A stretch of DNA of 28,157 nucleotides. It comes from a virus. Numbering within the stretch: the stretch's first letter is position 1; every line of letters starts with the position of its first letter. Shown one piece after another: positions 60-22,184 of the stretch. The stretch is from the IMG/VR virus record IMGVR_UViG_3300017917_002573, positions 1 to 28,157 of that record. The stretch is one strand, 5' to 3'. The notes beneath the pieces are model-generated. The model saw only the letters and a program-made list of their open reading frames with translations, did not search any database and was not told the origin of the DNA. The translations under genes were made by a program, and so were the position numbers.

Positions 60-136
60 GCCCCGGTGACGGAATTGGTATACGTGTTGGTCTTAGAAGC
101 CAAATTTTGAGAGTTCGAGTCTCTCCTGGGGCACCA
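60..136 (+). tRNA. tRNA-Leu(UAG) with a short variable loop
   Basis: Acceptor GCCCCGG pairs with CTGGGGC, followed by A and encoded CCA. The anticodon loop CTTAGAA gives UAG (reads CUA). The D arm with GAATTGGTA is Leu-like. The variable region is only about 5 nt (atttt), whereas bacterial tRNA-Leu normally has a long type II arm, as the second Leu tRNA at 2557 does. The amino acid rests on the anticodon and D arm. Confidence 0.88.
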
Positions 137-144
137 AGTTTCAC

Positions 145-219
145 GGTCTCAAAGTGTTCATGGACGCACGTATGCCTGTCACGCATAAAGAAGGGGATCG
201 TTACCCCTTGGGACCGCCA
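145..219 (+). tRNA. tRNA-Asp(GUC) with atypical T loop
   Basis: Acceptor GGTCTCA pairs with TGGGACC, then G and CCA. The anticodon loop is CTGTCAC (GUC). The T stem AGGGG/CCCCT closes the loop ATCGTTA (197-203), in which the normal T54 and A58 are exchanged. Confidence 0.9.
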
Positions 220-224
220 TTTAT

Positions 225-300
225 TCCCTAATAGCTCAGTTGGTAGAGCAGCAGACTGTTAATCTGTTGGTCCGTGGTTCGAGTCCACGTTGGGGAGCCA
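225..300 (+). tRNA. tRNA-Asn(GUU)
   Basis: Acceptor TCCCTAA pairs with TTGGGGA, then G and CCA. The anticodon arm has loop CTGTTAA (GUU), and the T loop is a normal TTCGAGT. Confidence 0.95.
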
Positions 301-329
301 TTTTTACCTGATCGGACAAAAGGATGCAA

Positions 330-959
330 ATGAAAAAACTAGCAATTTTTGTTTCACACCCACATTGTTCAGTGCAATCCGCTAATGGCATCATAGAAGC
401 GTTAAAGAAAAACTACGCCTTTAAAATTTTCTCGAAGCATGGGGTTGAAGAGCCGTTTTTTAACGATGTGGATGGAGTAATATTTCCAGGAGGTATAGGA
501 CAAGCCAACTCATACCATTCCCTTCTTTCGAAGAATGAACACGCCGTTAAACAACACGTATCCTCCGGCGGCAAGTACATAGGTATTTGTATGGGAGGAT
601 ACTGGGCAGGTTCTAACTACTTCAATCTACTACAGGGATGTGATGCGGTGCAATACATTAAAAGGGCCAACGCGGACACGAAAAGGCCTCATGCAAAAAA
701 CTTAGATGTCCTGTGGCAAGACAAAAAAGAAAAAATGTTTTTCTATGATGGATTTTCAGTGACGCCAGGTGATTATACTGTGTACGCTTCTTATGCAAAC
801 GGTGATCCGATGGCAGTCATACAAAACAATGTGGGCATTATTGGCTGTCATCCAGAGGCTACTGAGTATTGGTATGATAGTTACTCATGGATGCGAGGCA
901 AGTTTGTCAATAAACAGCATCTACTACTAGAATTTGTCGATACTCTGTTTAACAGTTAA
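330..959 (+). CDS. BPL_N / class I glutamine amidotransferase-like protein
   Basis: A 209-aa protein with the fold of class I glutamine amidotransferases/DJ-1, closest by motif to the biotin-protein-ligase N-terminal (BPL_N) family. Visible motifs are FPGGIGQAN (about 53-60), a nucleophile elbow GICMGGYWAG with Cys87, and GCHPEATEYWY with His174 and Glu176. Together these give a Cys-His-Glu arrangement. The length suits a single-domain enzyme, and no ligase domain follows. I chose the ATG at 330 because the one at 324 overlaps the Shine-Dalgarno AAAGGA. The gene sits between tRNA genes, so it is probably co-transcribed with them. Substrate unknown; a role in ligation or amidation is not shown. 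The fold is fairly sure, the function is not. Confidence 0.75.
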   Translation: MKKLAIFVSHPHCSVQSANGIIEALKKNYAFKIFSKHGVEEPFFNDVDGVIFPGGIGQANSYHSLLSKNEHAVKQHVSSGGKYIGICMGGYWAGSNYFNLLQGCDAVQYIKRANADTKRPHAKNLDVLWQDKKEKMFFYDGFSVTPGDYTVYASYANGDPMAVIQNNVGIIGCHPEATEYWYDSYSWMRGKFVNKQHLLLEFVDTLFNS

Positions 960-970
960 TAGTTTCGCCA

Positions 971-1004
971 GGTCAGCGGCGTATAGTAGGACAAATAGCT
1001 GACC
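971..1004 (+). other. tRNA-acceptor-like hairpin (possible tRNA remnant)
   Basis: GGTCAGC (971-977) pairs perfectly with GCTGACC (998-1004) around a 20-nt loop, followed by ACA rather than ACCA. The 7-bp stem plus discriminator-like A resembles a tRNA acceptor stem, and the loop looks like the rest of a D arm. It could equally be a processing hairpin or a weak terminator without a T run. Confidence 0.3.
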
Positions 1005-1012
1005 ACATATTT

Positions 1013-1086
1013 GGGCTGTTAGTTAAATGGGATAACGGTAGCTTTGCAAGCTTCAGTTGGGAGTTCGATTCTCCCACGGTCCACCA
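1013..1086 (+). tRNA. tRNA-Ala(UGC)
   Basis: Acceptor GGGCTGT pairs with ACGGTCC, including G-T wobbles, then A and CCA. The anticodon loop is TTTGCAA (UGC), with one T-T mismatch in the anticodon stem. The T arm is normal. Confidence 0.9.
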
Positions 1087-1091
1087 AATTT

Positions 1092-1166
1092 GGTTCAATG
1101 ACGTAGACGGATGCGTACCGGTTTCATAAGCCGAGGAGATTGGATCGTTACCAATTTGAACCACCA
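1092..1166 (+). tRNA. tRNA with CAU anticodon (elongator Met or Ile2), atypical T loop
   Basis: Acceptor GGTTCAA pairs perfectly with TTGAACC, then A and CCA. The loop TTCATAA gives CAU. The pair at position 1:72 is G-C, so this is not the initiator, which is the separate gene at 3249. Whether it is Met or lysidine-modified Ile2 cannot be decided by eye. The T loop is ATCGTTA (1144-1150), with positions 54 and 58 exchanged. Confidence 0.88.
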
Positions 1167-1169
1167 TTT

Positions 1170-1244
1170 CGGTCTTTGGTGAAACGAATATCACGTAGGG
1201 CTACGGACCCTAAGTTAGGGGTTTGATTCCTCTAGGACCGGCCA
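1170..1244 (+). tRNA. tRNA-Arg(ACG)
   Basis: Acceptor CGGTCTT pairs with AGGACCG, then G and CCA. The anticodon loop is CTACGGA (ACG, presumably read as ICG after deamination). The T loop is TTTGATT, with T in place of C56. Confidence 0.9.
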
Positions 1245-1246
1245 AC

Positions 1247-1321
1247 ACCCTTGTAGCTCAGAGGAAGAGCATCGTCTTGATAAGGCGGAGGTCGACATTT
1301 CGAAATTGTCCAAGGGTACCA
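1247..1321 (+). tRNA. tRNA-Ile(GAU)
   Basis: Acceptor ACCCTTG pairs with CAAGGGT, then A and CCA. The D stem is GCTC/GAGC and the anticodon loop TTGATAA gives GAU. The T stem has a T-T mismatch at its loop-closing pair (53:61). Confidence 0.92.
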
Positions 1322-1325
1322 AATT

Positions 1326-1399
1326 CTCTCGGTGGTGTAATGGCAGCACAGCAGTCTCCAAAACTGTTAGTTGCGGTTCGAGTCCGTGCCGGGAGGCCA
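1326..1399 (+). tRNA. tRNA-Trp(CCA)
   Basis: Acceptor CTCTCGG pairs with CCGGGAG, then G and encoded CCA. The anticodon loop is CTCCAAA. The T loop is TTCGAGT. Confidence 0.92.
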
Positions 1400-1424
1400 A
1401 ATACATAATAACAAAGGTGTTAAT

Positions 1425-1901
1425 ATGAGAAAATTAAACATTGACGAAGTAAAGTCTTATATAAGAGAACAGAGCCCAGAAACTAAGATTTATCTCGGTG
1501 CGGACTCTGAACGATTTAATATCGGTAATGCATGGTACGCAGACTACACTTTGGCAGTTGTTGTTCATATTGACGGCCGCCATGGTTGCAAAATCTTTGG
1601 TGAAGTGGTGCGTGAACGTGATTATGACCAAAGAAAAGATAAACCATCAATGAGATTGATGAATGAAGTTTATAAAGTTGCAGACTTATTTCATGAATTG
1701 TCCGATGTATTAGAAGATAGACATGTGGAAGTTCACCTAGATATTAATCCAGATGAACACTATGGTTCTTCTTGTGTGGTTCAACAAGCGATTGGTTATA
1801 TCAAAGGTACATGTAATGTTGTACCAATGGTTAAACCAAAAGCATTTGCTGCTTCATATGCGGCAGATAGATTGAAACATGTTTTAGCAATGGCTGCTTA
1901 A
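1425..1901 (+). CDS. YkuK/DUF458-type RNase H-like protein
   Basis: A 158-aa protein matching the RNase H-like family of Bacillus YkuK (DUF458, PF04308) by motif. IYLGADSE near residue 22 gives Asp27, VEVHLDINPD near 102 gives Asp106, and SYAADRL near 144 gives Asp148. These are spaced as acidic metal ligands of an RNase H fold would be. An in-frame opening extends upstream into tRNA-Trp. I start at the ATG at 1425 because AAAGGTG lies just upstream and the protein then begins before the first beta strand. It lies between tRNA-Trp and tRNA-His, so it is probably expressed from the tRNA transcript; a role in tRNA or RNA metabolism is only suggested by position. Nuclease activity has not been shown for this subfamily as far as I know. 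Confidence 0.75.
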   Translation: MRKLNIDEVKSYIREQSPETKIYLGADSERFNIGNAWYADYTLAVVVHIDGRHGCKIFGEVVRERDYDQRKDKPSMRLMNEVYKVADLFHELSDVLEDRHVEVHLDINPDEHYGSSCVVQQAIGYIKGTCNVVPMVKPKAFAASYAADRLKHVLAMAA

Positions 1902-1904
1902 TAT

Positions 1905-1979
1905 GGTGTCTATGGTGTAGTGGAAGCATCACTCTCTGTGAAAGAGTAGGTACGAGGTCGATACTCGTTAGACACCCCA
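1905..1979 (+). tRNA. tRNA-His(GUG)
   Basis: Acceptor GTGTCTA pairs with TAGACAC. An extra 5' G at 1905 (G-1) faces discriminator C at 1976, the hallmark of tRNA-His. The anticodon loop is CTGTGAA (GUG) and the CCA is encoded. The T loop is GTCGATA, with G at position 54. Confidence 0.95.
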
Positions 1980-1993
1980 AATGAGGAATAACT

Positions 1994-2233
1994 ATGAAAC
2001 CTTTTAGTAATAATGTAATCGTAAAACGATCTGAAAAAATTCTGACGACAGCTTCAGGTATTCTATTGCAGAGAACCGATGAAGCTGATTATGCAGATAT
2101 CGTTTCAATTGGACCTGATGTTGTTGATGTTGCAGTCAACGATAAAGTTCTGTTAGATTGGAACAAAGCAATAAAGATTGACAAAGAAAATTATAAAATT
2201 TCTGTTGACAATATTATCGCTGTTGTAGAATAA
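1994..2233 (+). CDS. GroES-like co-chaperonin (gp31/GroES family)
   Basis: A 79-aa protein with the GroES beta-barrel pattern. It opens with MKPFSNNVIVKR, which corresponds to GroES KPLxDRVxVKR. A mobile-loop segment TTASGILLQ (about 18-26) would contact the host GroEL rim. VSIGPDVVDVAVNDKVLLD and a C-terminal VDNIIAVVE complete the family pattern. It is shorter than host GroES (about 97 aa) because the roof region is small. T4 gp31 replaces GroES so that GroEL can fold the major capsid protein gp23, and the same job is inferred here. GAGGA at 1983-1987 serves the ATG at 1994. The gene sits between tRNA-His and tRNA-Val. Confidence 0.85.
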   Translation: MKPFSNNVIVKRSEKILTTASGILLQRTDEADYADIVSIGPDVVDVAVNDKVLLDWNKAIKIDKENYKISVDNIIAVVE

Positions 2234-2241
2234 TACTTAAT

Positions 2242-2315
2242 GCCTCCTTAGTTTAATGGTAGAACTCCGTCTTTACACGGCGGTTACGGCAGTTCGATTC
2301 TGTCAGGAGGCACCA
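2242..2315 (+). tRNA. tRNA-Val(UAC)
   Basis: Acceptor GCCTCCT pairs perfectly with AGGAGGC, then A and CCA. The anticodon loop is TTTACAC (UAC). The T loop is TTCGATT. Confidence 0.94.
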
Positions 2316-2318
2316 ATT

Positions 2319-2392
2319 GCTCTCATAGTATAAAGGCATTACACATCCTTGGTAAGGCTGAGACACAGGATCGTTACCTGTTGAGAGCACCA
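2319..2392 (+). tRNA. tRNA-Thr(GGU) with atypical T loop
   Basis: Acceptor GCTCTCA pairs with TGAGAGC, then A and CCA. The anticodon loop is TTGGTAA (GGU), with one mismatch in the stem. The T stem ACAGG/CCTGT closes loop ATCGTTA (2370-2376), the same swapped loop as in the Asp and CAU tRNAs. Confidence 0.9.
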
Positions 2393-2394
2393 AT

Positions 2395-2471
2395 GCCGCT
2401 ATGGTGAAGGTGGTCCTCACGCTGGTCTGAAGAACCAGAGAACCTAGTTCGATTCTTAGGTGGCGGCACCA
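2395..2471 (+). tRNA. tRNA-Phe(GAA)
   Basis: Acceptor GCCGCTA pairs with TGGCGGC, then A and CCA. The anticodon loop is CTGAAGA (GAA). The T arm carries one extra nucleotide, so either the stem has a bulge or the loop has 8 nt. Confidence 0.9.
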
Positions 2472-2477
2472 AACATA

Positions 2478-2552
2478 CTGGCGTTAGTATAATGGATAAT
2501 ACAGTAGCCTTCTAAGCTATCAATAGAGGTTCGATTCCTCTACGCCGGACCA
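2478..2552 (+). tRNA. tRNA-Arg(UCU)
   Basis: Acceptor CTGGCGT pairs with ACGCCGG, then A and CCA. The anticodon loop is CTTCTAA (UCU). It reads AGA, a codon favoured in AT-rich phage genes. Confidence 0.93.
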
Positions 2553-2556
2553 AAAT

Positions 2557-2639
2557 GCGACTATGGTGAAATAGGTAGACACAGGAGACTTAAAATCTCC
2601 CGCTTCGGCGTGCTGGTTCGAATCCTGCTAGTCGCACCA
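2557..2639 (+). tRNA. tRNA-Leu(UAA)
   Basis: Acceptor GCGACTA pairs perfectly with TAGTCGC, then A and CCA. The anticodon loop is CTTAAAA (UAA). A normal type II variable arm (cgc-ttcg-gcg) is present, in contrast to the Leu(UAG) gene at 60. Confidence 0.95.
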
Positions 2640-2657
2640 AATATACCAAAGTGTCTC

Positions 2658-2686
2658 TTGACATTGAAGAAGATACACTATATAAT
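2658..2686 (+). promoter_or_regulatory. Perfect consensus sigma70 promoter inside the tRNA array
   Basis: TTGACA (2658-2663) and TATAAT (2681-2686) are separated by exactly 17 nt. Both hexamers match the bacterial housekeeping consensus fully. The predicted start near 2693 falls 3 nt before tRNA-Gly(UCC), so this promoter would drive the Gly-Thr-Gly-Pro-RNA-fMet part of the array with unmodified host RNA polymerase, early in infection. Confidence 0.85.
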
Positions 2687-2695
2687 ACAAGAATT

Positions 2696-2769
2696 GCGGG
2701 GTTAGTTTAATGGTAAAACGAAAGCCTTCCAAGCTCTAGTTATCAGTTCGATTCTGATACTCCGCTCCA
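2696..2769 (+). tRNA. tRNA-Gly(UCC)
   Basis: Acceptor GCGGGGT pairs with ACTCCGC, then T and CCA. The anticodon loop is CTTCCAA (UCC). The body closely resembles tRNA-Gly(GCC) at 2857, so the two look like duplicates that diverged at the anticodon. Confidence 0.93.
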
Positions 2770-2774
2770 AATAA

Positions 2775-2850
2775 GCTCCTGAAGCATTGCTGGCGATGCG
2801 CCGGATTTGTAACCCGGAGATAATCTGTTCGATTCAGATCGGGAGCACCA
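2775..2850 (+). tRNA. tRNA-Thr(UGU)
   Basis: Acceptor GCTCCTG pairs with CGGGAGC, then A and CCA. The D stem is GCAT/ATGC and the anticodon loop TTTGTAA gives UGU. The T loop is normal, unlike that of the other Thr tRNA. Confidence 0.93.
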
Positions 2851-2856
2851 GAATTT

Positions 2857-2930
2857 GCGGGATTAGTTTATTGGTAAAACGAAACCTTGCCAAGGTTTAG
2901 TGATCAGTTCGATTCTGATATCCCGCTCCA
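2857..2930 (+). tRNA. tRNA-Gly(GCC)
   Basis: Acceptor GCGGGAT pairs perfectly with ATCCCGC, then T and CCA. The anticodon loop is TTGCCAA (GCC). Near-copy of the Gly(UCC) gene 160 bp upstream. Confidence 0.94.
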
Positions 2931-2936
2931 AGATTT

Positions 2937-3012
2937 CTCCGTATGGCGTAACCAGGTAGCGTCCGTGATTTGGGGTCATGTGGTCCAGGTTCGAATCCTG
3001 GTACGGAGACCA
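2937..3012 (+). tRNA. tRNA-Pro(UGG)
   Basis: Acceptor CTCCGTA pairs perfectly with TACGGAG, then A and CCA. The anticodon loop is TTTGGGG (UGG). The T arm CCAGG-TTCGAAT-CCTGG is perfect. Confidence 0.94.
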
Positions 3013-3248
3013 GAACGTGCCGACTAATCAACGGCTAGTGTGACCCGCACGATGAGAAGTGGCATGATAACCACGGGTGGTAGTCTTTAAACCGGAAGGC
3101 CGCTGGCAATGCGTTAACGGGACCCGTCGAGAAGTGGGTGGAAGCCGCGTGTGATGCAAAAAATGGTAGGTGTAGATTAAGTTCTACTCTAAGCCCATTG
3201 AGTTGATGCGGTATAATTACCACCGGGGTCCGTCAGAGCATTTTATTT
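3013..3248 (+). ncRNA. Candidate structured RNA of unknown class between tRNA-Pro and tRNA-fMet
   Basis: These 236 nt separate two tRNAs in an array whose other spacers are mostly 2-10 nt. No credible + strand reading frame is present. The stretch is richer in G and C than neighbouring spacers and full of complementary segments. GCCG/CGGC pair near 3019-3035. ACCC (3043-3046) pairs with GGGT (3075-3078), enclosing GTGG/CCAC (3059-3062/3071-3074). CCGC (3145-3148) pairs with GCGG (3208-3211), enclosing AATGG/CCATT (3162-3166/3195-3199) and GTAGA/TCTAC (3172-3176/3183-3187). Longer-range segments (GGTGGTA near 3076, TACCACC near 3219, GGACCC near 3120, GGGTCC near 3226) could form a pseudoknot. 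I do not recognise tmRNA, RNase P or a known riboswitch. T4 also encodes two stable RNAs of unknown function (C and D) in its tRNA cluster. Confidence 0.5.
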
Positions 3249-3323
3249 CGCGGGGTACGTCAGAGGCAGACTACCAGGCTCATAACCTGGAAGACGGAGG
3301 TTCGAGTCCTCCTCCCGCAACCA
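3249..3323 (+). tRNA. Initiator tRNA-fMet(CAU)
   Basis: The acceptor begins CGCGGGG and ends CCCGCA-ACCA, giving the C1/A72 mismatch that marks bacterial initiator tRNA. The anticodon loop is CTCATAA. The anticodon stem CCAGG/CCTGG ends in two G-C pairs where E. coli has three. The CCA is encoded. It is the last tRNA of the array, 2 bp before the stop of the converging - strand operon. Confidence 0.92.
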
Positions 3324-3325
3324 AA

Positions 3326-3610
3326 CTACTTTAAATTTTCTTCTCTACAAGACCTCTCACGGTATAACCTACCTTCAGGGGTCTGTATTTCTTTCCATTC
3401 TGTACACACAACTTGTTTCTCTACCACAACTGGAACAGGTTGTTGAGACTCTATAATTTTATAAACAACTGCGCCACCAATGATAGTTGGAATTACCCAA
3501 CCAATTCCTGGTTTCCATACGTGATGTGGATGATGAGGATGGTGTCTGTATGGTTGTGCAAAAGCAGTTATTGAAATCGTTGCAAGTAAAAGAACCAAAA
3601 ACTTTTTCAT
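3326..3610 (-). CDS. Small exported His-rich protein
   Basis: A 94-aa protein with a clear Sec signal peptide (residues 1 to about 18, cleavage after TAFA). A His/Pro cluster HHPHHPHH follows near 23-30, then a hydrophobic glycine-containing stretch GIGWVIPTIIGGAVVY (about 36-51). The polar C-terminal third has two cysteines (CTEWKEIQ and RSCREE) that could form a disulphide. It is last in the leftward operon, 9 nt after the cyclase stop, with AAGGAGT before its ATG. The His cluster could bind metal and the hydrophobic stretch could touch a membrane; neither is shown. Family not recognised. Its place after curli-type genes and its export suggest an envelope role. Confidence 0.7.
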   Translation of the reverse strand: MKKFLVLLLATISITAFAQPYRHHPHHPHHVWKPGIGWVIPTIIGGAVVYKIIESQQPVPVVVEKQVVCTEWKEIQTPEGRLYRERSCREENLK

Positions 3611-3619
3611 AATAACTCC

Positions 3620-5623
3620 TTACTTACTTGTGGCACGGTATGTTCCGTCCCAGTTGGATGGTTTACCTTCTTTTAATCGTTCAATCATATTCTCGTAATA
3701 GTGAGACAAATCAGATCCGTCTTTAATTGCCTTCTCGGCAATCTCAATAGCCTTATCCCAGTCCCCATTATAATATGAATCTAAGAACTGTTCTTGTGTA
3801 ATGGCTTGGCCTAATGTATAAATCTTCACGCCTTCCTTCTTTCCTTTAACTGCAATACAATCCAACTCCACGACAGGATACTCATCTTTGACTTGTTCTG
3901 CTGTGACTGGTCCAAGAACAATCTTGACGCCATATGGTTTACTCTGGCCCTCTAAACGTGACGCGAGGTTAACATGATCGCCAAGGCATGTATAATCAAA
4001 ACGCTGAGAAGAACCCATATTACCAACAACGACAACACCCGTATTAATACCCAGTCCCATTCCGAAAGCGGGAACTCCTTCAGCAGCAATTTCTTTATTG
4101 AAAGCATCTAAACTGTCCATCATTTCTATTGCTGTTTTTACCGCCATCTTTGCATGATTGGGTTCGTCGAGGGGTGCATTCCAGAATGCCATCTGTGCAT
4201 CACCGATATATTTATCTAAAGTTCCGTTATTTTCAATAATCTTTGCAGTCATGGCCGTCATATAACGGTTCATGATTTTCGTTAAACCTTGTACGTCTTT
4301 TCCATAGTGTTCAGAGATGGTAGTAAAACCGCGAACATCGGTAAACATAATGGAGAGTTCACGGGATTCACCGCCAAGTCGGAGTAACTCAGGATTTCTT
4401 TGTAACTTTTCAACCAAGGCTGGAGATAGATATGTTCCGAATTGTTTCTTGATTTGGAGCTTCTGGCGCAACTCGACAAGGAACTTGACAACGTATCCGT
4501 GGAAGCTAACAAGCCCAATGGCAAGAATTGGGAACACAGCATCAAGTAGATAATTTGATTGAAGAAAGAGTTGTACACCTCCATAATAGGTAGCGAATCC
4601 CAGACCGAGCGCGAAGACGTATCCATGTGTGAACCTTGTTATGAAGATAAGAGACAATATAGAAATAACAAAAATGAATATCAGTTCCGCACCTGTTGCC
4701 CAATCTGGTCTACTGATGTTAGAACCTGATGTTACAGTATCCAATACACTTGCTTGCAGATGGTGAGGAAATACTTCACCTTTGGCCGTTGCAACTGGAT
4801 TGTTTAAGCCTTTGCCTGTGATGCCAACGATAACAATCTTACCACCAAAATCTTTAGGCAATTCAGATAAAGAAAACTCTTGCGGTTTGGACGACCAATC
4901 AACCCAAATTCTACCCACGTTATCAGTTACGATTTTGCCAAACTTTGGAATGCGTAGTGCTTCAATAGAACCTTCATTTACTTTGACCTGAAAACTCGGA
5001 TCGCCAGCTGCAACACGAAGAGTCTCCATCGACATACTAGGATATAACAATTCATTCGTGCGAACAACCATCGGTATTCTACGAGTAACACCGTCAATTT
5101 CAGGTAAAACATTAACGACGCCAATACCAGCAGCCGCATCATTTAATACTTTGATGTTTGGTTGTATTGTGCCATAATTGATGCCAACATCACCTTCACC
5201 AATAATAGAAACACCTGGCCTAAAAGGTTCATAGTCTCTATCAGACTTTTCACCTGTTGCTACATGCGGAAGAACTACAGGATATTTTTTTAGGACAGCA
5301 GAAAGCGCACCATCGCCACCGAAGCGATCAGGCTCAGGCATGTAAACATTAAACACAACCAGCCCAGCATTACGAGAATAGAGATCAGCAATAATGGAGG
5401 CATATTCTCTACGAGGGAATGGGAACTGTCCTTTTTGTCGAATAGTTTCGTCATCTATATTTACCACGGCGACTTGTTGGCTCTCCGTGCTTTCTTTTGA
5501 AGTGATGAGTTGGTCAAAATAACGCAATCGCACCGACTCAACGAACGCTGGATCTTGTACTCTAACAACAAGAAGAAGTACAAGTGTCAGTAAGGCCATC
5601 CAGGGAGATAGTAATTTTTTCAT
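3620..5623 (-). CDS. CHASE2-domain class III adenylate cyclase
   Basis: A 667-aa membrane enzyme expected to make cAMP from ATP. Order of parts: an N-terminal membrane anchor (about 5-22), a periplasmic CHASE2 sensor domain (about 25-305), three membrane helices (about 313-331, 334-354, 359-380), a short linker and a cytoplasmic class III cyclase domain (about 415-605). Catalytic residues look complete: metal ligands Asp429 (MFTDVRGF) and Asp475 (KYIGDAQ), purine-selecting Lys471 and Thr545 (YTCLGD), and transition-state Asn552 and Arg556 (NLASRLEG). Lys with Thr indicates a class IIIb adenylate rather than guanylate cyclase. The C-terminal 60 residues may form a helical hairpin. It overlaps the FecR gene by 4 bp (ATGA), implying translational coupling. 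CHASE2 cyclases often neighbour FecR-domain genes in bacteria, but one in a phage is unusual. Confidence 0.9.
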   Translation of the reverse strand: MKKLLSPWMALLTLVLLLVVRVQDPAFVESVRLRYFDQLITSKESTESQQVAVVNIDDETIRQKGQFPFPRREYASIIADLYSRNAGLVVFNVYMPEPDRFGGDGALSAVLKKYPVVLPHVATGEKSDRDYEPFRPGVSIIGEGDVGINYGTIQPNIKVLNDAAAGIGVVNVLPEIDGVTRRIPMVVRTNELLYPSMSMETLRVAAGDPSFQVKVNEGSIEALRIPKFGKIVTDNVGRIWVDWSSKPQEFSLSELPKDFGGKIVIVGITGKGLNNPVATAKGEVFPHHLQASVLDTVTSGSNISRPDWATGAELIFIFVISILSLIFITRFTHGYVFALGLGFATYYGGVQLFLQSNYLLDAVFPILAIGLVSFHGYVVKFLVELRQKLQIKKQFGTYLSPALVEKLQRNPELLRLGGESRELSIMFTDVRGFTTISEHYGKDVQGLTKIMNRYMTAMTAKIIENNGTLDKYIGDAQMAFWNAPLDEPNHAKMAVKTAIEMMDSLDAFNKEIAAEGVPAFGMGLGINTGVVVVGNMGSSQRFDYTCLGDHVNLASRLEGQSKPYGVKIVLGPVTAEQVKDEYPVVELDCIAVKGKKEGVKIYTLGQAITQEQFLDSYYNGDWDKAIEIAEKAIKDGSDLSHYYENMIERLKEGKPSNWDGTYRATSK

Positions 5624-6651
5624 CTTGATATCTGCTTAATAAAAATTTTGTTCGTTGTTGCGTCTTGATTTTTTATATACAATGTGACGCTATCTTGTAT
5701 CAATGTAATATCATAACCTCTATCTTTATTTATTTGTATGGTCGCCATGTCTTTTACTCGACGCTCTATGTACCAATATGTATTTCTATCAATGATATAG
5801 AGTTGTGTTGTTGGATTATATCCAATTGGAAAAGAACTTACATCGAAAATATTTTCCAAGGCATTAGACAAATAATTCGTATCCAGATCATTAATGTTCA
5901 ATTCATTAAATTTAAGTTCATCTTTGAATACGGCCTCATTTAGTGGATTATAATCAAGCGCATTAAATGATAATATGTCCATGCCCTTGTTGTTTTCTTC
6001 CACTAAAGCTTTTACGATTTCTTTTGGTGGTTTGACAATCAGCATATTGTCTATCATTGATTCGGTTAGATTCAATATTGCAGGTGCCAATGGTTTTGCT
6101 TCAGCCATTGATGTGTATGTTGCTTGAAATGCCCGATTGAGTGTCACTGAACCCATTGCAGTACGGACTTCAATTTCACCAACTGTGCCGTCTTGATTTG
6201 GTAACAAAATAATAGTAGAAGAACCTATTTCATCTACCGTCATAGTAAATGCGGTACCACGGACTGCGACAGTAGCAGTCGGTGTCTTTATGTCAACATT
6301 CTTATTGTTTTCTTTTGCGACATTACCTGAAGCATATCGTACGGTGCCGAGAGCTACTTTCATAGCCAGTTTACCTGCACCCTTAGACTTCGGGTCATAG
6401 ACAAAATCATCTATGATAAGTTTAGAGTGCTCGGTAACTCGTACTTTGGTATCATCATCAAATGTGATACCGACAACACCTTTGGCAGTAACAATATTAT
6501 CCATAGACTCGACACCAACATTCAATTTGGTGTCGAGCTTGGATTTATTACGAACTATCTCACTACTACCCTTCTCTTCAGTGACTTTGCCTATAGCGGC
6601 AAAAGAATTAATGCTGAACGATAGTAGTAGAAGTGTTATTACCCGTAACAT
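5620..6651 (-). CDS. FecR-domain periplasmic protein
   Basis: A 343-aa exported protein. It has a signal peptide (1 to about 18, ending INSFA) and a FecR domain (about 45-145). The family signature is visible in ITFDDDTKVRVTEHSKL, the ALGTVRYASG turn and TATVAVRGTAF. The remaining 200 residues are not recognised and contain Asn/Leu-rich helices and a beta-rich C-terminus. FecR domains sit in the periplasm and relay signals to membrane partners. The partner suggested by the 4-bp overlap downstream is the CHASE2 domain of the cyclase, which faces the same compartment. The start lies 44 bp inside the curlin-like gene and has no obvious Shine-Dalgarno, so it probably depends on ribosomes finishing that gene. 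There is no anti-sigma N-terminal domain, so it is not a classic FecR regulator. Confidence 0.82.
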   Translation of the reverse strand: MLRVITLLLLSFSINSFAAIGKVTEEKGSSEIVRNKSKLDTKLNVGVESMDNIVTAKGVVGITFDDDTKVRVTEHSKLIIDDFVYDPKSKGAGKLAMKVALGTVRYASGNVAKENNKNVDIKTPTATVAVRGTAFTMTVDEIGSSTIILLPNQDGTVGEIEVRTAMGSVTLNRAFQATYTSMAEAKPLAPAILNLTESMIDNMLIVKPPKEIVKALVEENNKGMDILSFNALDYNPLNEAVFKDELKFNELNINDLDTNYLSNALENIFDVSSFPIGYNPTTQLYIIDRNTYWYIERRVKDMATIQINKDRGYDITLIQDSVTLYIKNQDATTNKIFIKQISR

Positions 6652-7321
6652 TCAGATTGACAATGTTTGGAGTTGTAGTGCCGTTTTGGGTAATAGAAAC
6701 GGTGTTGTAATTACCAATGATTGTGCTGGTTATTTTATGACCAGGAGTCTGTGCTGTTCCGTTCGCTCCGTTTTGAACAGTCGTATATGTATTATGATCA
6801 CCAGTCACTGTAATATTATTGACAATATATTTACTATTCATTGTGCTGGTAACACTGTTATAACTTCCGCCGATAGTCAAGTTGTATATGTAATTGCTCG
6901 TATCAGCAGTGCTAGCCATAGTGAACGCAACTGTGTTATTGTCACCTGTTTTTGCCACGGTCATACTACCAGCGTTAGTACCGAAGTTACCTTGTGTCAA
7001 ACTAAAACTGTTGCCTGAACCAGTTTGTGTAATACTGGCCGTAGAGTCGCCGCCAATAAAATTGCCAACGATACTATTGTTCATACCATCCTGAACAATC
7101 GTCAAAGCCATGGCATTACCATCAATCAAGAATGCTGGTTGTAAAAGGCTCGCCCTATCACCGACTGCGTTACCTGATCCGGTTTGTGTAATACTTACAG
7201 TAGAGTTATCGGCATTCGTTTGATCAATATACACAGAGTTGTTGCCAGAGTTTGTTGCGAAAACACTAGCAGCGAATAATAAAGACATAATAAACGCTAA
7301 TGTGCGCATTGTCTTTTTCAT
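6608..7321 (-). CDS. Curlin-repeat (CsgA/CsgB-like) exported fibre protein
   Basis: A 237-aa protein with a signal peptide (1 to about 23, ending ASVFA). The mature part is rich in Asn, Thr, Gly, Ser and Gln, arranged in imperfect curlin-type units: VSITQTGSGN near 42, a second ASITQTGSGN near 94 and a third VSITQNG near 206. Weaker units such as NNTVAFTM and YNTVSITQ follow the same N-x-V-x-I-x-Q pattern. Curlin repeats fold as an amyloid beta-helix secreted through CsgG. Two 42-nt DNA stretches (near 7010-7051 and 7169-7210) are near-copies, showing expansion by duplication. Its place directly after CsgG and CsgF supports a fibre substrate. It is longer than E. coli CsgA (151 aa), and the repeats are more degenerate, so amyloid formation is an inference. 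Confidence 0.8.
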   Translation of the reverse strand: MKKTMRTLAFIMSLLFAASVFATNSGNNSVYIDQTNADNSTVSITQTGSGNAVGDRASLLQPAFLIDGNAMALTIVQDGMNNSIVGNFIGGDSTASITQTGSGNSFSLTQGNFGTNAGSMTVAKTGDNNTVAFTMASTADTSNYIYNLTIGGSYNSVTSTMNSKYIVNNITVTGDHNTYTTVQNGANGTAQTPGHKITSTIIGNYNTVSITQNGTTTPNIVNLNVTGNNTSTTIVQH

Positions 7322-7330
7322 CTTTTTTCC

Positions 7331-8122
7331 TTATTCTGGTCTTTTAAAAGGTTGTTTAAATTTCCAAAGTCCCTTTTCTTCACCTTGATATACAACTTCT
7401 TCGACTGCTAAATCAATAGCAGCCTTTACAGCATATATAGTCGGTTCAGTAGAGGTACTTCCTATTTCGTTTTCAAAAGAACGTGTTCCCTGATTAAAAA
7501 ACTTAAAAGTAGCAACAGATGTTGCGATGCTCAATAAAGTTTTTTGTGTGTTAACAGTCAGAATAACTTCTCCTGTTTGCACATTCACAGCTCTCAGAGA
7601 TACCGTTACAATATCTTCTTGGTATTGTGTCATTGGCCCAATACCCAAATAACGCCATCCAAAACCACCAGTTCTTTTGTTTGTATCATATGACACAATA
7701 GAACCTTCAATAATCATGCCTGCATAAAGAATTGGTCTAAGAATGTTTGGTTCTTTAACTTCATCTCTTGCTGAACGAATCAGCTGACGTTCCTTCATAA
7801 GGTTGTCCAAACCAACACGTTCGACAATCCTAAACCACTTACCATCACCAACGTCAGCAAGTGCTTTTAATAATAAAGAATCTGCACCTTGTGTAACGGC
7901 CGAACTTAATTTTGCCACAGAACCACTGTCTTTACGTTGCCCAGTTTTATCGGTAAAATTGTAAACAGCTACAACGATAGGTTGCCCAGTTTCAGGTTCC
8001 GGAAATGGTCTTTTGAATTGTGTGGGTGCGACTTTTTCGGCCTCTTGTGTGTCCCAAACCATAGGCAGTTCTGCACACGCCGTCAATAAAACCAACAGCA
8101 ATAAAGTTATTATCTTTTTCAT
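7331..8122 (-). CDS. csgG: CsgG-like curli secretion pore lipoprotein
   Basis: A 263-aa outer-membrane lipoprotein, close to E. coli CsgG (277 aa), which forms the nonameric curli secretion channel. The signal peptide ends in the lipobox LTAC with Cys16. Family motifs run along the whole length: VAVYNFTDKTGQ (about 51-62), VERVGLDNLMKERQLI (about 101-116), GSIVSYDTNKRTGG, the segment with LGIGP and QYQEDIVTVSLRAVNVQTGEV, and NTQKTLLSI. The C-terminal helices follow STEPTIYAVKAAIDLAVEE. No part of the fold appears to be missing. It overlaps csgF by one base (TAATG), and a curlin-repeat substrate gene lies 9 bp downstream. CsgE, the periplasmic gatekeeper, is not visible nearby. Confidence 0.93.
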   Translation of the reverse strand: MKKIITLLLLVLLTACAELPMVWDTQEAEKVAPTQFKRPFPEPETGQPIVVAVYNFTDKTGQRKDSGSVAKLSSAVTQGADSLLLKALADVGDGKWFRIVERVGLDNLMKERQLIRSARDEVKEPNILRPILYAGMIIEGSIVSYDTNKRTGGFGWRYLGIGPMTQYQEDIVTVSLRAVNVQTGEVILTVNTQKTLLSIATSVATFKFFNQGTRSFENEIGSTSTEPTIYAVKAAIDLAVEEVVYQGEEKGLWKFKQPFKRPE

Positions 8123-8577
8123 TAGAATTTAAACTGTGCAATAGGAATTGTAATTTGTGTTACACTTCCATCAGCTCCCACGACAGTCAGGCTAATCTCA
8201 TCACCATTCTTTGAATAAGAAATCGTGTTGCCAGAAATTACAACAGTTCCTGAGTTTTTAGGATTCTCACCGAAAAGATTATTTACCAATTGTGAAGACA
8301 GTTGAGCGTACACACGCGACTCAAAGTTATTGAGAAACTTTGCCAGATTCGTATTGCCTGCGGCCGCCGCGGCATCTTTAGCTGCTTGAAGTTTTGCGGC
8401 TTCTATGGCGTCCCTTCTTGTTTTCTCGCTATTCTCGATAGTTTGCACATGTGCAGAATAAGAAATACCGTTGAACGCGGGTGATTTAAATGTTTGAACT
8501 AGTTCAGCTTGGCTTATTTGTGTCAGAGTCATCAAAACGATAACCACCAGACTCTTCAATGTTCTTATTTTTTTCAT
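8122..8577 (-). CDS. csgF: CsgF-like curli assembly factor
   Basis: A 151-aa exported protein with signal peptide 1-24 (cleavage before ELVQTF). Mature CsgF starts with a short segment that plugs into the CsgG channel and contains a Asn-Pro-Ser-Phe-Gly-like motif; here the equivalent is KSPAFNGIS near 31. The middle NFESRVYAQLSSQLVNNLFG (about 84-103) matches the CsgF helix, and the C-terminal beta-rich part holds ISYSKNGDEISLTVVG. An Ala-rich helix (AAKLQAAKDAAAAAG) is longer than usual. CsgF couples secretion to nucleation on the cell surface. The start lies inside the upstream membrane-protein gene (74-bp overlap), with GAGGGAAC about 10 nt before the ATG. Confidence 0.85.
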   Translation of the reverse strand: MKKIRTLKSLVVIVLMTLTQISQAELVQTFKSPAFNGISYSAHVQTIENSEKTRRDAIEAAKLQAAKDAAAAAGNTNLAKFLNNFESRVYAQLSSQLVNNLFGENPKNSGTVVISGNTISYSKNGDEISLTVVGADGSVTQITIPIAQFKF

Positions 8578-8809
8578 CTTTGAGTTCCCTCAACATTAAT
8601 ACGATATTGACTTTTTGATTCAAACGAATCAAATCATTATCCAACATTCTAATACGATCAATCAAAGCTATTAGTGTACTATTTGCTTCACCTAAAACAG
8701 GTTTAATTTCTTTTGTTACCCAAGTCCAAACATAATATATAAAATATCCCATACCAGCAGCACTGACAATAGGAAATCCATATTTGTTAATCAGTTCTGC
8801 TATGTCCAT
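8504..8809 (-). CDS. Small holin-like membrane protein (BhlA/UviB/YvrJ-type), copy 2
   Basis: A 101-aa protein. MDIAELINKYGFPIVS opens it, a membrane helix follows (about 12-33), and then comes a charged coiled-coil-like region (about 40-75) and an acidic tail. The helix-plus-coil layout with an N-terminal GFPIV box recalls small BhlA/UviB/YvrJ proteins, some of which are bacteriocin or phage holin-like. It is a paralogue of the protein at 8966-9244: both start MD and reach GFPI at residue 11. That alignment and an AGAAAG upstream favour the ATG at 8809 over the TTG at 8815. Its 3' end overlaps csgF by 74 bp. It could be a holin, or a membrane partner of the curli genes it precedes; the sequence does not decide. 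Confidence 0.65.
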   Translation of the reverse strand: MDIAELINKYGFPIVSAAGMGYFIYYVWTWVTKEIKPVLGEANSTLIALIDRIRMLDNDLIRLNQKVNIVLMLRELKDEKNKNIEESGGYRFDDSDTNKPS

Positions 8810-8963
8810 CTTCAATCTTTCTAAACACTACGCGACCATTTGGTGCAACATATAACTTATATAAATCTCCTGGCAGTGCATTAATTTCTGACGCTTTTAA
8901 TTGTTCGTCCATTATAATAGTGCCATCATCCATCACTTCAAATAAGTAATCTACAAACATCAT
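8787..8963 (-). CDS. 58-aa acidic hypothetical protein
   Basis: A short frame starting with a double ATG (8963 and 8960) preceded by GGAGAG, ending at TAA (8787-8789). The protein begins MMFVDYLFEVMDDGTIIMDE and continues with LPGDLYKLYVAPNGRVVFRK, a beta-hairpin-like pattern. It fills the space between the two holin-like paralogues and overlaps the second by 23 bp, matching the compact style of the operon. No family recognised. The good ribosome site, the absence of any gap on either side and a natural codon pattern support it as real. Confidence 0.6.
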   Translation of the reverse strand: MMFVDYLFEVMDDGTIIMDEQLKASEINALPGDLYKLYVAPNGRVVFRKIEDGHSRTD

Positions 8964-8965
8964 TT

Positions 8966-9244
8966 TTAATCTCTCCGTGCATCATTTTTGCCGTCTGCTC
9001 GAGCAATCCGGTCAACGTCTGGTTTTACACCTAATGCGTTTGACACTAAGGTATCAATACGAATGACATCGTGGTTCATAGTTTTAACTCGGTTATCTAA
9101 GGCCATAATAATACCTTTAATACCGTTGACAGAACCTGTAACACCCTGTAGAATAAATTTGAGTGTTAAAAAGACGAAATATCCTGCTGCCAAAGACGAT
9201 GCAATAGGAAATCCAACTTCCGCGACCAGTTTAAAAAAGTCCAC
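8966..9244 (-). CDS. Small holin-like membrane protein (BhlA/UviB/YvrJ-type), copy 1
   Basis: A 92-aa protein that starts the leftward operon. MDFFKLVAEVGFPIASS leads into a membrane helix (about 12-34, AAGYFVFLTLKFIL). A helical segment (VNGIKGIIMALDNRVKTMNHDVIRID, about 38-63) and a charged C-terminus (DGKNDARRD) follow. It uses a GTG start at 9244 with AAAGGTGA just upstream. It aligns from end to end with the gene at 8504-8809 at the level of layout and the GFPI box, so the pair probably arose by duplication. A holin-like or membrane-scaffold role is possible; I cannot assign one. Confidence 0.65.
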   Translation of the reverse strand: MDFFKLVAEVGFPIASSLAAGYFVFLTLKFILQGVTGSVNGIKGIIMALDNRVKTMNHDVIRIDTLVSNALGVKPDVDRIARADGKNDARRD

Positions 9245-9385
9245 AATGTCACCTTTTCGTTATAATTTTAATGGCAATCATGTCGACCAGTACTTGCATT
9301 TGTATCTGGAGTCATATATAATAACAAGATTCTCATCTATTTATGCAGGGCACTCCTCTCGCATATCAACCTAAGGTTTCACATT
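9245..9385. promoter_or_regulatory. Divergent promoter region
   Basis: This 141-bp gap separates the leftward curli-type operon from the rightward replication genes. On the + strand TTGCAT (9294-9299) and TATAAT (9317-9322) are 17 nt apart, a strong sigma70-type promoter. On the - strand CATAAATA (complement of 9338-9345) differs by one base from the T4 late box TATAAATA. TCGACA/TATAAC (complement of 9281-9286 and 9259-9264, 16-nt spacer) is a second leftward candidate, but it would start inside the ribosome site of the first gene. The rightward promoter is convincing and the leftward ones are tentative. Confidence 0.6.
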
Positions 9386-9691: not shown

Positions 9692-12237
9692 TGTCAAATT
9701 TCTACACAAACGTACAGTGTTTTGGTAATAGTATTCTTTATCGCGGAGTAATGGGCGGTAAAAGAGTAAAACAACGAATCGATTATTCTCCTTCGTTATA
9801 CATTCCTGCCAGAAAGAATCCACAGGGAATTTACAAGTCCTTGGATGGCATCGATCTCGATAAGAAAGAATTTGAAGACCTGAGGTCTGCCAGAGATTTC
9901 GTCAAACAATTTGATGGTCTTCCTGGCGCACCAAAGATTTATGGCAATACTCGTTACGAGTATGCTTTCATCGCAGATCAACACACCGAAATGGTTGATT
10001 GGGACCAAGACCACATTCTTATCGGTATCGTCGATATCGAAGTTGGCTCAGAAAATGGATTTCCTGATCCATATGAAGCAAACGAACCAATCACGGCCAT
10101 CACCATCACATATCTAAACGGGCATACGTATGTCTATGGTTGCGGTGATTATAATAATTATTCCGACGATGTAACCTATTTCAAATGCAGAGATGAATGG
10201 ACTCTTTGCAAAAGATTTTTGGAAGATTGGCAAACAAAATGCCCAGACGTTATCACAGGTTGGAATACTAAATTCTTCGATATTCCTTATCTTGTAAATC
10301 GATTCAATCGTATTCTCGGTGAAGATCAGGCCAAGAAACTTTCACCTTGGAATTTTATTTCCGAAAGAACGACCGTCATCAATGGCCGTCAACTCAAAGC
10401 ATATGAAATTGTAGGTGTTGCATCACTTGATTATATTGAATTATATAAGTGGTATGCGCCAGGCGGAAAATCACAAGAATCATATCGATTGGATAATATT
10501 GCAAACGTCGAACTCGGTGAGGGCAAGATTTCATATGAAGAATATGAAAACTTACACCAACTTTACAAATTAAACTATCAAAAGTTTATTGAGTATAATA
10601 TCAAAGACGTACATCTGATTATCAAACTAGAAGATAAGTTGAAATTGTTGGAACTGGCTTTGACTCTGGCCTATGACACGAAATCGAACTATGAAGATGT
10701 GTTTGCGCAAACGAGAATGTGGGACTCGTTGACCTATTCCTACTTGTTGCAGAAAAATATTATTGTCCCGCCACGGGAAGTCAAAGAGAAAGATTCTGCA
10801 TTCGAAGGCGCATATGTTAAAATACCACAGGTTGGTATGCATGAATGGGTGGCATCATTTGACTTGAACTCTCTGTATCCTCATTTGATGATGCAATACA
10901 ATATCTCACCAGAGACACTCATCGAACCAGAAGACTATACTCCAGAAATGCGAGAAATCGTTTCTCAAGGCGTAAGCGTCGATAAATTGCTGTTTAAATC
11001 AGTTAATCTATCAAATTTGAGTGGTGCAACCATTACACCCAACGGTCAATTCTTTCGTACTGACATCCAAGGTTTCTTGCCTCGTATGATGGAAGAAATG
11101 TATGAAGATCGAAAGAAATTCAAAAAGATGATGTTGGTTGCAAAACAAGAATATGAAAATGAAACTGACAATACTAAAAAGTATGATATCGAAAAGCGAA
11201 TCGCAAGACTTAACAATCTACAGTTGGCAAAGAAAGTTTCTCTAAACTCCGCTTATGGTGCTTTGGGCAGTCAGTATTTCCGATTCTATGATTTGCGAAT
11301 GGCACTTGGTGTTACCTCGGCCGGCCAATTAAGTATTCGTTGGATCGAAGGTAAAATTAATGAATACATGAATAAGATTCTGGAATCTGATGCGGCCGAT
11401 TATGTAATCGCATCAGATACAGATTCAATTTATTTGCGTCTTGGTGAACTTGTCAATAAATTCATCAAAGATACCAAAGACAAGAATAAAGTTATTTCAC
11501 TCATGGATAAAATCTGTGAGGAAAAGATTCAACCTTATATCGATAGAAGTTACAAAGAACTTGCGGATTATGTTCATGCATATGCACAGAAGATGCAGAT
11601 GAAACGTGAAGGTCTTTCCGATAAAGGTGTTTGGACGGCCAAGAAACGTTACATACTTAATGTGTATAACAATGAAGGCGTACAATACAAAGAACCTCAT
11701 ATGAAAATTATGGGTCTTGAGATGATTAAATCATCAACACCATCCGCCATTCGAGAAAAGATGACAGAAACAATTAAGATTATGATGAGTGGTACAGAAT
11801 CAGATGTGCAAGATTTCATTCAACAATTCAAAGAAGATTTTAAGAAGTTGCCACCCGAAGAGATATCATTTCCTCGTGGTCTGAATGGTTTGAAGACATA
11901 TGCCGATCCTGTAACGTTGTATGGTAAGGGAACACCGATTCACGTTAAAGGTGCGATTCTATATAATCATTATCTCAAACAAATGAATCTCACCAAAAAG
12001 TATCCTTTGATACAAGAGGGTGAGAAGATTAAGTTTACCTATCTGAGAATGCCAAATCATTTCAAAGATACCGTCATTTCATATCCTGGTAGATTACCAA
12101 AAGAGTTTGAGCTTGACAAATGCATTGACTATGATTTACAATTCGAGAAAGCATTTCTTGAACCAGTCAAGGTTATTTTGGACTGCATGAATTGGTCGGT
12201 AGAGAAACGCAGTTCACTGGAAGATTTTTTTAGTTAA
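9691..12237 (+). CDS. 43: Family B replicative DNA polymerase (gp43-like)
   Basis: An 848-aa polymerase, near the length of T4 gp43 (898 aa). The 3'-5' exonuclease motifs are present: Exo I DIEVG with Asp115 and Glu117, Exo II WNTKFFDIPYL with Asp197, and Exo III YNIKDVHLI with Asp306. Polymerase motif A is DLNSLYP with Asp391, motif B KVSLNSAYG near 515-523, and motif C ASDTDSIYL with Asp576 and Asp578. Proofreading and synthesis sites therefore both look intact. The C-terminal LEDFFS resembles the short hydrophobic clamp-binding tail of T4-type polymerases. No intron or intein interrupts the gene. The one-base overlap with the upstream small gene and the 9-bp gap to uvsX fit a replication operon. 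Confidence 0.97.
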   Translation: MSNFYTNVQCFGNSILYRGVMGGKRVKQRIDYSPSLYIPARKNPQGIYKSLDGIDLDKKEFEDLRSARDFVKQFDGLPGAPKIYGNTRYEYAFIADQHTEMVDWDQDHILIGIVDIEVGSENGFPDPYEANEPITAITITYLNGHTYVYGCGDYNNYSDDVTYFKCRDEWTLCKRFLEDWQTKCPDVITGWNTKFFDIPYLVNRFNRILGEDQAKKLSPWNFISERTTVINGRQLKAYEIVGVASLDYIELYKWYAPGGKSQESYRLDNIANVELGEGKISYEEYENLHQLYKLNYQKFIEYNIKDVHLIIKLEDKLKLLELALTLAYDTKSNYEDVFAQTRMWDSLTYSYLLQKNIIVPPREVKEKDSAFEGAYVKIPQVGMHEWVASFDLNSLYPHLMMQYNISPETLIEPEDYTPEMREIVSQGVSVDKLLFKSVNLSNLSGATITPNGQFFRTDIQGFLPRMMEEMYEDRKKFKKMMLVAKQEYENETDNTKKYDIEKRIARLNNLQLAKKVSLNSAYGALGSQYFRFYDLRMALGVTSAGQLSIRWIEGKINEYMNKILESDAADYVIASDTDSIYLRLGELVNKFIKDTKDKNKVISLMDKICEEKIQPYIDRSYKELADYVHAYAQKMQMKREGLSDKGVWTAKKRYILNVYNNEGVQYKEPHMKIMGLEMIKSSTPSAIREKMTETIKIMMSGTESDVQDFIQQFKEDFKKLPPEEISFPRGLNGLKTYADPVTLYGKGTPIHVKGAILYNHYLKQMNLTKKYPLIQEGEKIKFTYLRMPNHFKDTVISYPGRLPKEFELDKCIDYDLQFEKAFLEPVKVILDCMNWSVEKRSSLEDFFS

Positions 12238-17179: not shown

Positions 17180-17196
17180 TATTGATAGGTATTATT

Positions 17197-17946
17197 ATGA
17201 CAGCATCTGTGATTTTACCAACTACTGGTGCACCAGAGTTGAGAACTGCACTTGAAAGTGTATTGAATCAAACTTATGATACAACTTGTTATGTTGTTAT
17301 CGACGGCGATAAATTTGCACCTAAGGCCAGAACCATACTCAGTGATTACTTGGGCAACAAGAATCTAAAGATATGTGAACTACCATTAAATGTTGGTGCA
17401 AATGGTTTCTATGGGCACCGCGTTTATGCCGCTTTCACACATCTTATTAACACCGACTATGTTCTTTACCTCGACCAAGATAACTGGTTTGATAAAAATC
17501 ATGTCGAGTCGTGTGTGAACACCATACAAAAAACCAATTCAGACTGGTGTTATTCTCTACGCAAAATATACAAAGAAAACGAGTTAATATGTACCGACGA
17601 CTGCGAATCATTAGGTAAATGGGAATGTTTTCAGGGTTATCCACACATAGATACAAGTTCGTATTGCCTTAAAACAAAAGTTGCTGTATTATTGGCGCAA
17701 GTGTGGCATGGTGGTTGGGGTCAAGATAGGGTTTTCTATTCAGCCCTCAAACAGTACTTACCTAAGTATGAATGTACAAGGGATTATACTTTGAACTATC
17801 GTGTTGGTGGTAATGAAGGTTCTGTCAAACCAGAGTTCTTCCTTGCTGGTAATAAAATTATGAATGACAAATATAATGGAGAATTTCCATGGAGAAAAAA
17901 AATCTCATCATCGGAGCCTTCACTGGTTACACTTACAATCAACTAA
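17197..17946 (+). CDS. Family 2 glycosyltransferase (GT-A)
   Basis: A 249-aa enzyme opening with MTASVILPTTGAPELRTALE and SVLNQTYDTTCYVVIDGD, the standard GT2 N-terminus that binds the nucleotide sugar. The metal-binding DxD is YVLYLDQDNWF (near 90-100). WHGGWGQDRVFY near 170 fits the acceptor side with its catalytic Asp. I start at the ATG at 17197 (AGG 7 nt upstream) rather than an upstream TTG. Donor and acceptor sugars cannot be told. It opens a run of nine genes that overlap or abut, so it is probably the first gene of a glycan cassette. Confidence 0.82.
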   Translation: MTASVILPTTGAPELRTALESVLNQTYDTTCYVVIDGDKFAPKARTILSDYLGNKNLKICELPLNVGANGFYGHRVYAAFTHLINTDYVLYLDQDNWFDKNHVESCVNTIQKTNSDWCYSLRKIYKENELICTDDCESLGKWECFQGYPHIDTSSYCLKTKVAVLLAQVWHGGWGQDRVFYSALKQYLPKYECTRDYTLNYRVGGNEGSVKPEFFLAGNKIMNDKYNGEFPWRKKISSSEPSLVTLTIN

Positions 17947-22182: not shown

Positions 22183-22184
22183 TT

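Follow-up and report, generated by a model that had tools for sequence, protein, structure and literature searches.

A curli-type gene module with a predicted late promoter in a T4-like phage contig

Why should a T4-like phage carry genes of the curli secretion pathway? The question is raised by the viral record IMGVR_UViG_3300017917_002573, whose positions 1 to 28,157 were analysed here (the window). In this contig of a T4-like water phage a curli-type block, with homologues of CsgF, CsgG and curlin, lies between a transfer RNA (tRNA) array and a replication block, on the strand opposite to the latter. The function of phage curli modules has been debated since 2020, with a pore, lysis, a shield and 'sibling capture' all under discussion. 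We found that the block is part of a larger unit, conserved in many phages, which is probably transcribed late, with the virion genes. As a whole the evidence is best explained, in our view, by a late phage operon exporting a curli-type adhesive fibre, with roles for a FecR-domain protein, an adenylate cyclase and two small membrane proteins (TM1 and TM2). On balance we think this account probable, with some reserve.

Extent and content of the unit

An earlier sequence-only reading of the window had identified a curli-type secretion module in a T4-like phage, and rightly so. The open reading frames (ORFs) for CsgF, CsgG and the curlin-repeat protein are adjacent on the minus strand where that reading had placed them, and Pfam profiles match all three, including the CsgG and CsgF profiles that it had proposed as a check. 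Genuine and complete as they are, the three correctly placed genes form only the middle of a larger unit. Where the reading had given an extent of 6608-8577, the full unit spans 3326-9244 on the minus strand, and the FecR-domain protein, the cyclase and the two small membrane proteins had been missed as members. In order of transcription, the promoter motif and the genes are as follows.

9331..9338, minus strand: late-promoter motif CATAAATA (fits NATAAATA), about 90 bp upstream of TM1
8966..9244, minus strand: TM1, 92 amino acids (aa), GTG start, one membrane helix by eye; phrog_18771
8787..8963, minus strand: 58-aa ORF between TM1 and TM2, present in part of the relatives
8504..8815, minus strand: TM2, 103 aa, TTG start as listed, one membrane helix by eye; TM1 paralogue in the same PHROG
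8122..8577, minus strand: CsgF homologue, 151 aa, signal peptide by eye; PF10614, 3.2e-16
7331..8122, minus strand: CsgG homologue, 263 aa, lipoprotein; PF03783, 5.8e-52
6608..7321, minus strand: curlin-repeat protein, 237 aa, predicted fibre subunit, signal peptide by eye; PF07012, 9.6e-05
5620..6651, minus strand: FecR-domain protein, 343 aa, signal peptide by eye; PF04773, 2.3e-08
3620..5623, minus strand: CHASE2 and class III adenylate/guanylate cyclase protein, 667 aa; PF05226, 5.3e-39, and PF00211, 8.6e-21
3326..3610, minus strand: 94-aa small protein, signal peptide by eye, at the block end; beside tRNA-Met, in the relative L004 too

The genes are compactly packed. TM2 and CsgF overlap, CsgF and CsgG share one base, the gap from CsgG to curlin is 9 bp, curlin and FecR overlap by 44 bp, and the FecR stop overlaps the cyclase start by 4 bp. 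Searches of the 94-aa ORF against Pfam, PHROG and other family collections gave no match.

Conservation among phages

The flanks were as first described: 18 tRNAs at 60-3323 on one side and, from 9386 on the other, gp43-, UvsX- and gp41-type replication genes. A chimera of phage and bacterial DNA was rejected because both junctions recur in L004, a viral locus with the same block and a CsgG 93% identical to that of the window; there too the gp45-associated ORF adjoins TM1 and the 94-aa ORF adjoins tRNA-Met. The former junction was also found in several other loci. The ratios of nonsynonymous to synonymous substitution (dN/dS) against L004 were 0.04-0.09 for csgG, curlin, fecR and cyclase, compared with 0.057 for gp43 and 0.054 for UvsX, with dS near saturation. 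The module is thus under purifying selection, and bacterial contamination of the window was excluded by the phage flanks and by dN/dS values like that of gp43.

With the window CsgG as query, 57 loci were retrieved from viral contigs, a second set contributed 72 more, and a pattern scan of IMG/VR with a CsgG alignment gave at least 594 confirmed CsgG contigs. Phage curli modules are widespread. The order CsgF-CsgG-curlin-FecR was kept in nearly all loci examined (57, then 72). The cyclase was mostly downstream of FecR, and in some loci it lay elsewhere or on the other strand. Near the curli module of one locus (L018, 5849-6216) there is a transfer-messenger RNA (tmRNA) gene, as in phage Melnitz.

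Late-promoter motif upstream of TM1

The published late promoter motif of T4-like cyanophages is NATAAATA (PMC2984593). We counted it at up to 200 bp upstream of genes in non-redundant phage loci, taking the expectation from first-order Markov shuffles. The motif preceded TM1 in 78 of 126 loci, compared with 6.9% expected, and was rare or absent before TM2 (2/128), csgG (0/130), curlin (4/187), fecR (1/121) and early replication genes (0/37). Where TM1 and TM2 lay on the opposite strand, csgF had a motif of its own in 19 of 32 loci, against 9 of 69 with the pair on the same strand. As a positive control, in phage HTVC008M the motif was found before the tail tape measure, DNA end protector, gp48-type, gp25-type, wedge and neck genes. 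From the enrichment and this control we predict late transcription, and the module is probably transcribed with the virion genes. HTVC008M also has an annotated outer-membrane porin (KC465899.1, 28040-28897) with TATAAATA 100 bp upstream, possibly a second late outer-membrane gene.

CsgG, CsgF and the absence of CsgE

The window CsgG matched CsgG sequences in the PDB (3x2r, 4uv3) at E about 1e-45 to 2e-44. It has the lipobox LLTAC, and the cysteine, C16, is kept in at least 90% of aligned relatives. In CsgF, a conserved FKSPAFNG segment follows the signal peptide; within the FxxPxFxG pattern, F30, P33 and G37 are invariant across a 21-row alignment. The segment is equivalent to the CsgG-binding peptide of E. 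coli, and the N-terminus of the phage protein appears to be of this CsgG-binding type. A 1.5-kb record named Salmonella phage S.Kent 1-2-1 (OR851715.1) contains an unannotated CsgG and is possibly bacterial DNA.

CsgE, which the sequence-only reading had not seen, is indeed missing: its profile (PF10627) was found in none of 11 phage or metagenome-assembled genome (MAG) records, the window included. As that reading had suggested, CsgE may come from the host, or the pore may be ungated. Viral and alphaproteobacterial modules have been described as lacking CsgC, CsgD and CsgE (PMC9599517). This absence from every record tested fits the proposal that an ungated CsgG admits large nutrients, made by Zaragoza-Solas et al. 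2020 (PMC7029224), who reported CsgF/CsgG and suggested uptake or 'sibling capture'. An uptake pore, however, has no need of a conserved curlin, of a pore-binding segment in CsgF or of late timing, and we consider it very unlikely.

The curlin substrate and second curlins

The Curlin_rpt profile matched the candidate fibre subunit with 22.7 bits (cut-off 20.7). A CsgA model (NF007470; 2.8e-05) and a CsgB model (5.3e-04) also matched, both far below their curated cut-offs. The motif [IVTLFSA].[IVTLF].Q.G occurs four times in the protein, compared with a mean of 0.22 in shuffled sequences, and none of 5000 shuffles reached that count. A search of PDB sequences returned a single match, the major curlin subunit 8enq (E 0.0078), and the AlphaFold2 model is a beta-solenoid with strands at roughly 22-residue steps (mean predicted local distance difference test score, pLDDT, 82.9).

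In the first set of viral loci, BLAST found 49 curlin ORFs. The group to which the window belongs has one curlin, and in its 168-kb relative L013 a single place has curlin repeats; in many other relatives a second curlin stands between FecR and the cyclase. Lectin-type domains are present in long second curlins, PA14 in 8 of 36 and F5/8 type C in 7 of 36, and the second curlin of HTVC008M matches PA14 at 2.7e-06. Carbohydrate-binding-type domains on a predicted fibre subunit argue for adhesion. Together with the late-promoter result, these domains point to an adhesive fibre produced as infection ends, and they speak against nutrient uptake and against early exclusion.

Exclusion has been proposed in the form of a surface shield, a fibre coat on infected cells against superinfection (PMC9599517), to which grazing may be added. 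Such a coat is plausible, and the window also has a glycosyltransferase island; but late timing would fall after most of the superinfection risk, and lectin-type domains suggest binding, not blocking, which leaves the shield distinctly improbable. Predicted co-expression with structural genes and the lectin-type domains would also suit an exported fibre, or lectin-curlin, carried on released particles as an aid to host finding and not to cell cohesion. The fibre, however, would be exported on the cell side, and a virion curlin is known from no phage; we hold this reading to be doubtful, a shade more so than the shield.

Between FecR and the cyclase, locus L020 has a DNA/RNA non-specific endonuclease (10466-11221; PF01223, 2e-56) with a signal peptide by eye. 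It is possibly an alternative cargo or a periplasmic effector of the phage curli module.

The FecR-domain protein and the cyclase

Behind its signal peptide the FecR-domain protein has the FecR domain, a low-confidence linker and a C-terminal beta domain. An iron regulator of the FecIRA type does not fit the signal peptide, the N-terminus (the Pfam FecR match begins at residue 52, with no anti-sigma domain match) or the lack of FecI or FecA partners in the block. Fold comparison of the model gave matches to PupR (periplasmic part) and to BDI_1681, a putative anti-sigma factor; over 61 columns the model also superposed at 0.9 Å on the cell-surface anchoring domain 5ix9, with sequence support of only E 0.29. 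A curlin-like I.I.Q strand ends the protein in 28 of 28 aligned FecRs. Comparison of this tail with the curlin C-terminus by hhalign gave E 0.015 and a probability of 3%, so the relationship is suggestive only. The protein may act as a tether or nucleator of the fibre.

The cyclase matched adenylate cyclases in the PDB at best with 2.4e-34. Residues D429, K471, D475, D549 and R556 are present in 38 of 38 proteins, as is T, S or D at 545, and N552 in 31 of 38. Judged by these positions, among them the two metal Asp, the Lys with its Thr/Ser/Asp, the Asn and the Arg, the class III adenylate cyclase active site appears intact.

The TM1/TM2 pair

TM1 and TM2 are paralogues. They are probably the genes called histidine kinase (HK) by Wittmers et al. 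2022 (PMC9599517), an equation that we make because of their matching position. The leading genes of the window nevertheless encode one-helix proteins of 92 and 103 aa with no kinase match in Pfam, and no member of the family has a kinase, HATPase or other significant Pfam domain.

The pair keeps close company with the curli genes. Among 50,697 phage records it was found only in those of HTVC008M and Melnitz. When viral contigs were scanned with TM1 alone, 28 loci had 10 kb of flank on either side; all 28 contained TM2 plus one or more curli-module genes, and CsgG lay inside the flank in 24. The pair and the module occupy opposite strands in 44 loci, so the pair is retained there even without co-transcription. 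We favour the reading of TM1 and TM2 as phage-specific partners of the curli module, and they offer a specific, testable missing component of such modules.

Small one-helix proteins that travel with the module also recall lysis genes. Buchholz et al. 2022 (PMC9004378), stating that csgA and csgB are lacking, proposed a pinholin or secretin; in a lysis module CsgG would be such a pore, and holin-like TM1/TM2 would time or help lysis. A late promoter fits lysis genes, as do the pair's weak matches to a holin PHROG. The CsgG family, however, consists of outer-membrane lipoproteins, whereas pinholins act in the inner membrane, and curlin, lectin-fused second curlins, FecR and cyclase would be left unexplained. 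The published argument moreover needs csgA/B to be absent, and the Melnitz record annotates two curlin-repeat proteins. We judge a lysis module unlikely.

Proposed role of the module

In the adhesive-fibre account, TM1-s58-TM2-csgF-csgG-curlin-fecR-cyclase (s58 being the 58-aa ORF) would be one operon, read from a T4-type late promoter at the same time as the virion genes. The Sec signal of the curlin would take it across the inner membrane by way of host Sec into the periplasm, from where it would leave through the outer-membrane CsgG pore, whose mouth would be held by CsgF, and a curli-type fibre would form outside the dying cell. FecR would be a periplasmic partner and no iron regulator, with a curlin-like C-terminus that could anchor the fibre or seed it. 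The CHASE2 cyclase would sense an envelope signal and produce cAMP, and TM1 and TM2 would be phage-specific inner-membrane helpers. The most likely use of the fibre would be as an adhesive by which infected cells, debris and progeny are held near fresh hosts. In a more specific form, the module would be a type VIII variant in which obligate TM1/TM2 and a curlin-tailed FecR replace CsgE and CsgB, and an amyloid decorated with lectins is pushed out late in infection to stick cells to virions or to one another; we put this forward tentatively, as possible but rather unlikely.

Several results weigh against the adhesive fibre. The match to the curlin repeat profile is modest, and with the curlin model Foldseek retrieved nothing from the PDB at E <= 0.001. 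The VIA-align list had no CsgA and consisted entirely of generic beta-solenoids (SufB/D, pectinases, tailspikes); it carries little information because it re-examines Foldseek's own matches. The window module is without the second, lectin-bearing curlin, its FecR and cyclase overlapping by 4 bp. CsgE was found neither in the window nor in eight longer phage records, two of which are complete published genomes. The window CsgG does not keep Y51, N55 and F56, which we take to be the constriction residues of E. coli CsgG, and the pore may therefore be altered. In 38% of loci the late motif is missing upstream of TM1. Eight of 29 TM1/TM2 members have weak matches to phrog_4898 (holin; best 1.1e-4) and no Pfam match, a similarity that makes a lysis role of the pair possible. 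Finally, cultures infected with Melnitz showed no visible clumping (PMC9004378); this observation and the changed constriction residues weigh most.

Relation to known curli systems

The sequence-only reading had allowed that the linkage of CsgF, CsgG and curlin might be new. That claim was dropped, given that HTVC008M (KC465899) and Melnitz (MZ577097) have the same order and that PMC7029224, PMC9004378 and PMC9599517 describe it. Wittmers et al. gave the order of this type VIII secretion system (T8SS) in podo- and myo-pelagiphages as HK-CsgF-CsgG-CsgA/B-FecR-(CsgA/B)-AC, with one or two 'histidine kinases' and AC being the adenylate cyclase. The window shares the order of this pelagiphage module, including the one or two small genes that come first, and thus is a new single-curlin member of a kind already published. 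It differs in having one curlin, with FecR running directly into the cyclase, and one-helix proteins of 92-103 aa without a kinase domain at the 'HK' position.

The HTVC008M record annotates CsgF, CsgG and curlin, then two hypothetical proteins and the cyclase; its CsgG is 45% identical to that of the window. Melnitz, annotated with CsgF, CsgG, two curlin-repeat proteins, FecR and cyclase, is 65% identical in TM1, 54-59% in TM2 and 44-49% in CsgG. What the window has in common with E. coli csgBAC-csgDEFG is CsgG and CsgF, both recognised by profile and CsgG by a PDB sequence match too, and a substrate with curlin-type repeats. Unlike E. coli it has no CsgE, CsgC and CsgD were not seen, FecR and a CHASE2 cyclase are added, the curlin repeats are irregular and the pore-constriction residues differ. 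In the literature accessible to us we did not find the late-promoter link, the lack of a kinase domain in TM1/TM2, lectin-type second curlins or the operons without the pair described next.

Two contigs from Caulobacteraceae bins, apparently of one sample (L061, 82.6 kb; L062, 32 kb), carry CsgF-CsgG-curlin-curlin-FecR-cyclase. The gene order is that of the phages, but TM1 and TM2 are absent and the flanks are cellular, with acyl-CoA dehydrogenase, amidohydrolase, glycosyltransferases and a TonB receptor plug domain. In cyclase and CsgG trees both contigs join the phage clade, to the exclusion of other bacterial sequences, with 99-100% support in the Shimodaira-Hasegawa-like approximate likelihood ratio test (SH-aLRT). 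Of 149 Caulobacteraceae, G001 and G002 alone yielded a close relative of the L061 cyclase, and the next best among 385 Alphaproteobacteria scored 420 bits, against 1554, in the L061 cyclase search. The approximately unbiased (AU) test did not reject the phages as one clade (p 0.56 for cyclase, 0.42 for CsgG), so that transfer from phage to bacterium and from bacterium to phage both remain.

Phage-type modules with TM1/TM2 also occur in bacterial MAGs (L063, L064, L065, L068, L072, L081, L082, L085 and L137; Rhodobacteraceae, Sphingobacteriales, Planctomycetes and others). Such loci (for example L063, L068, L072, L081 and L137) look like phage contigs binned with bacteria, and they are a trap for surveys of bacterial curli.

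Other genes in the window

Inside the tRNA array lie a GroES-like Cpn10 ORF (1994-2233) and a BPL_N/GATase-like ORF (324-959). The glycosyltransferase island at 17182-23908 is of a surface-sugar type, with a family 2 glycosyltransferase, a methyltransferase, an APH-like phosphotransferase and one protein that resembles, by eye, a nucleotidyltransferase joined to a HAD phosphatase.

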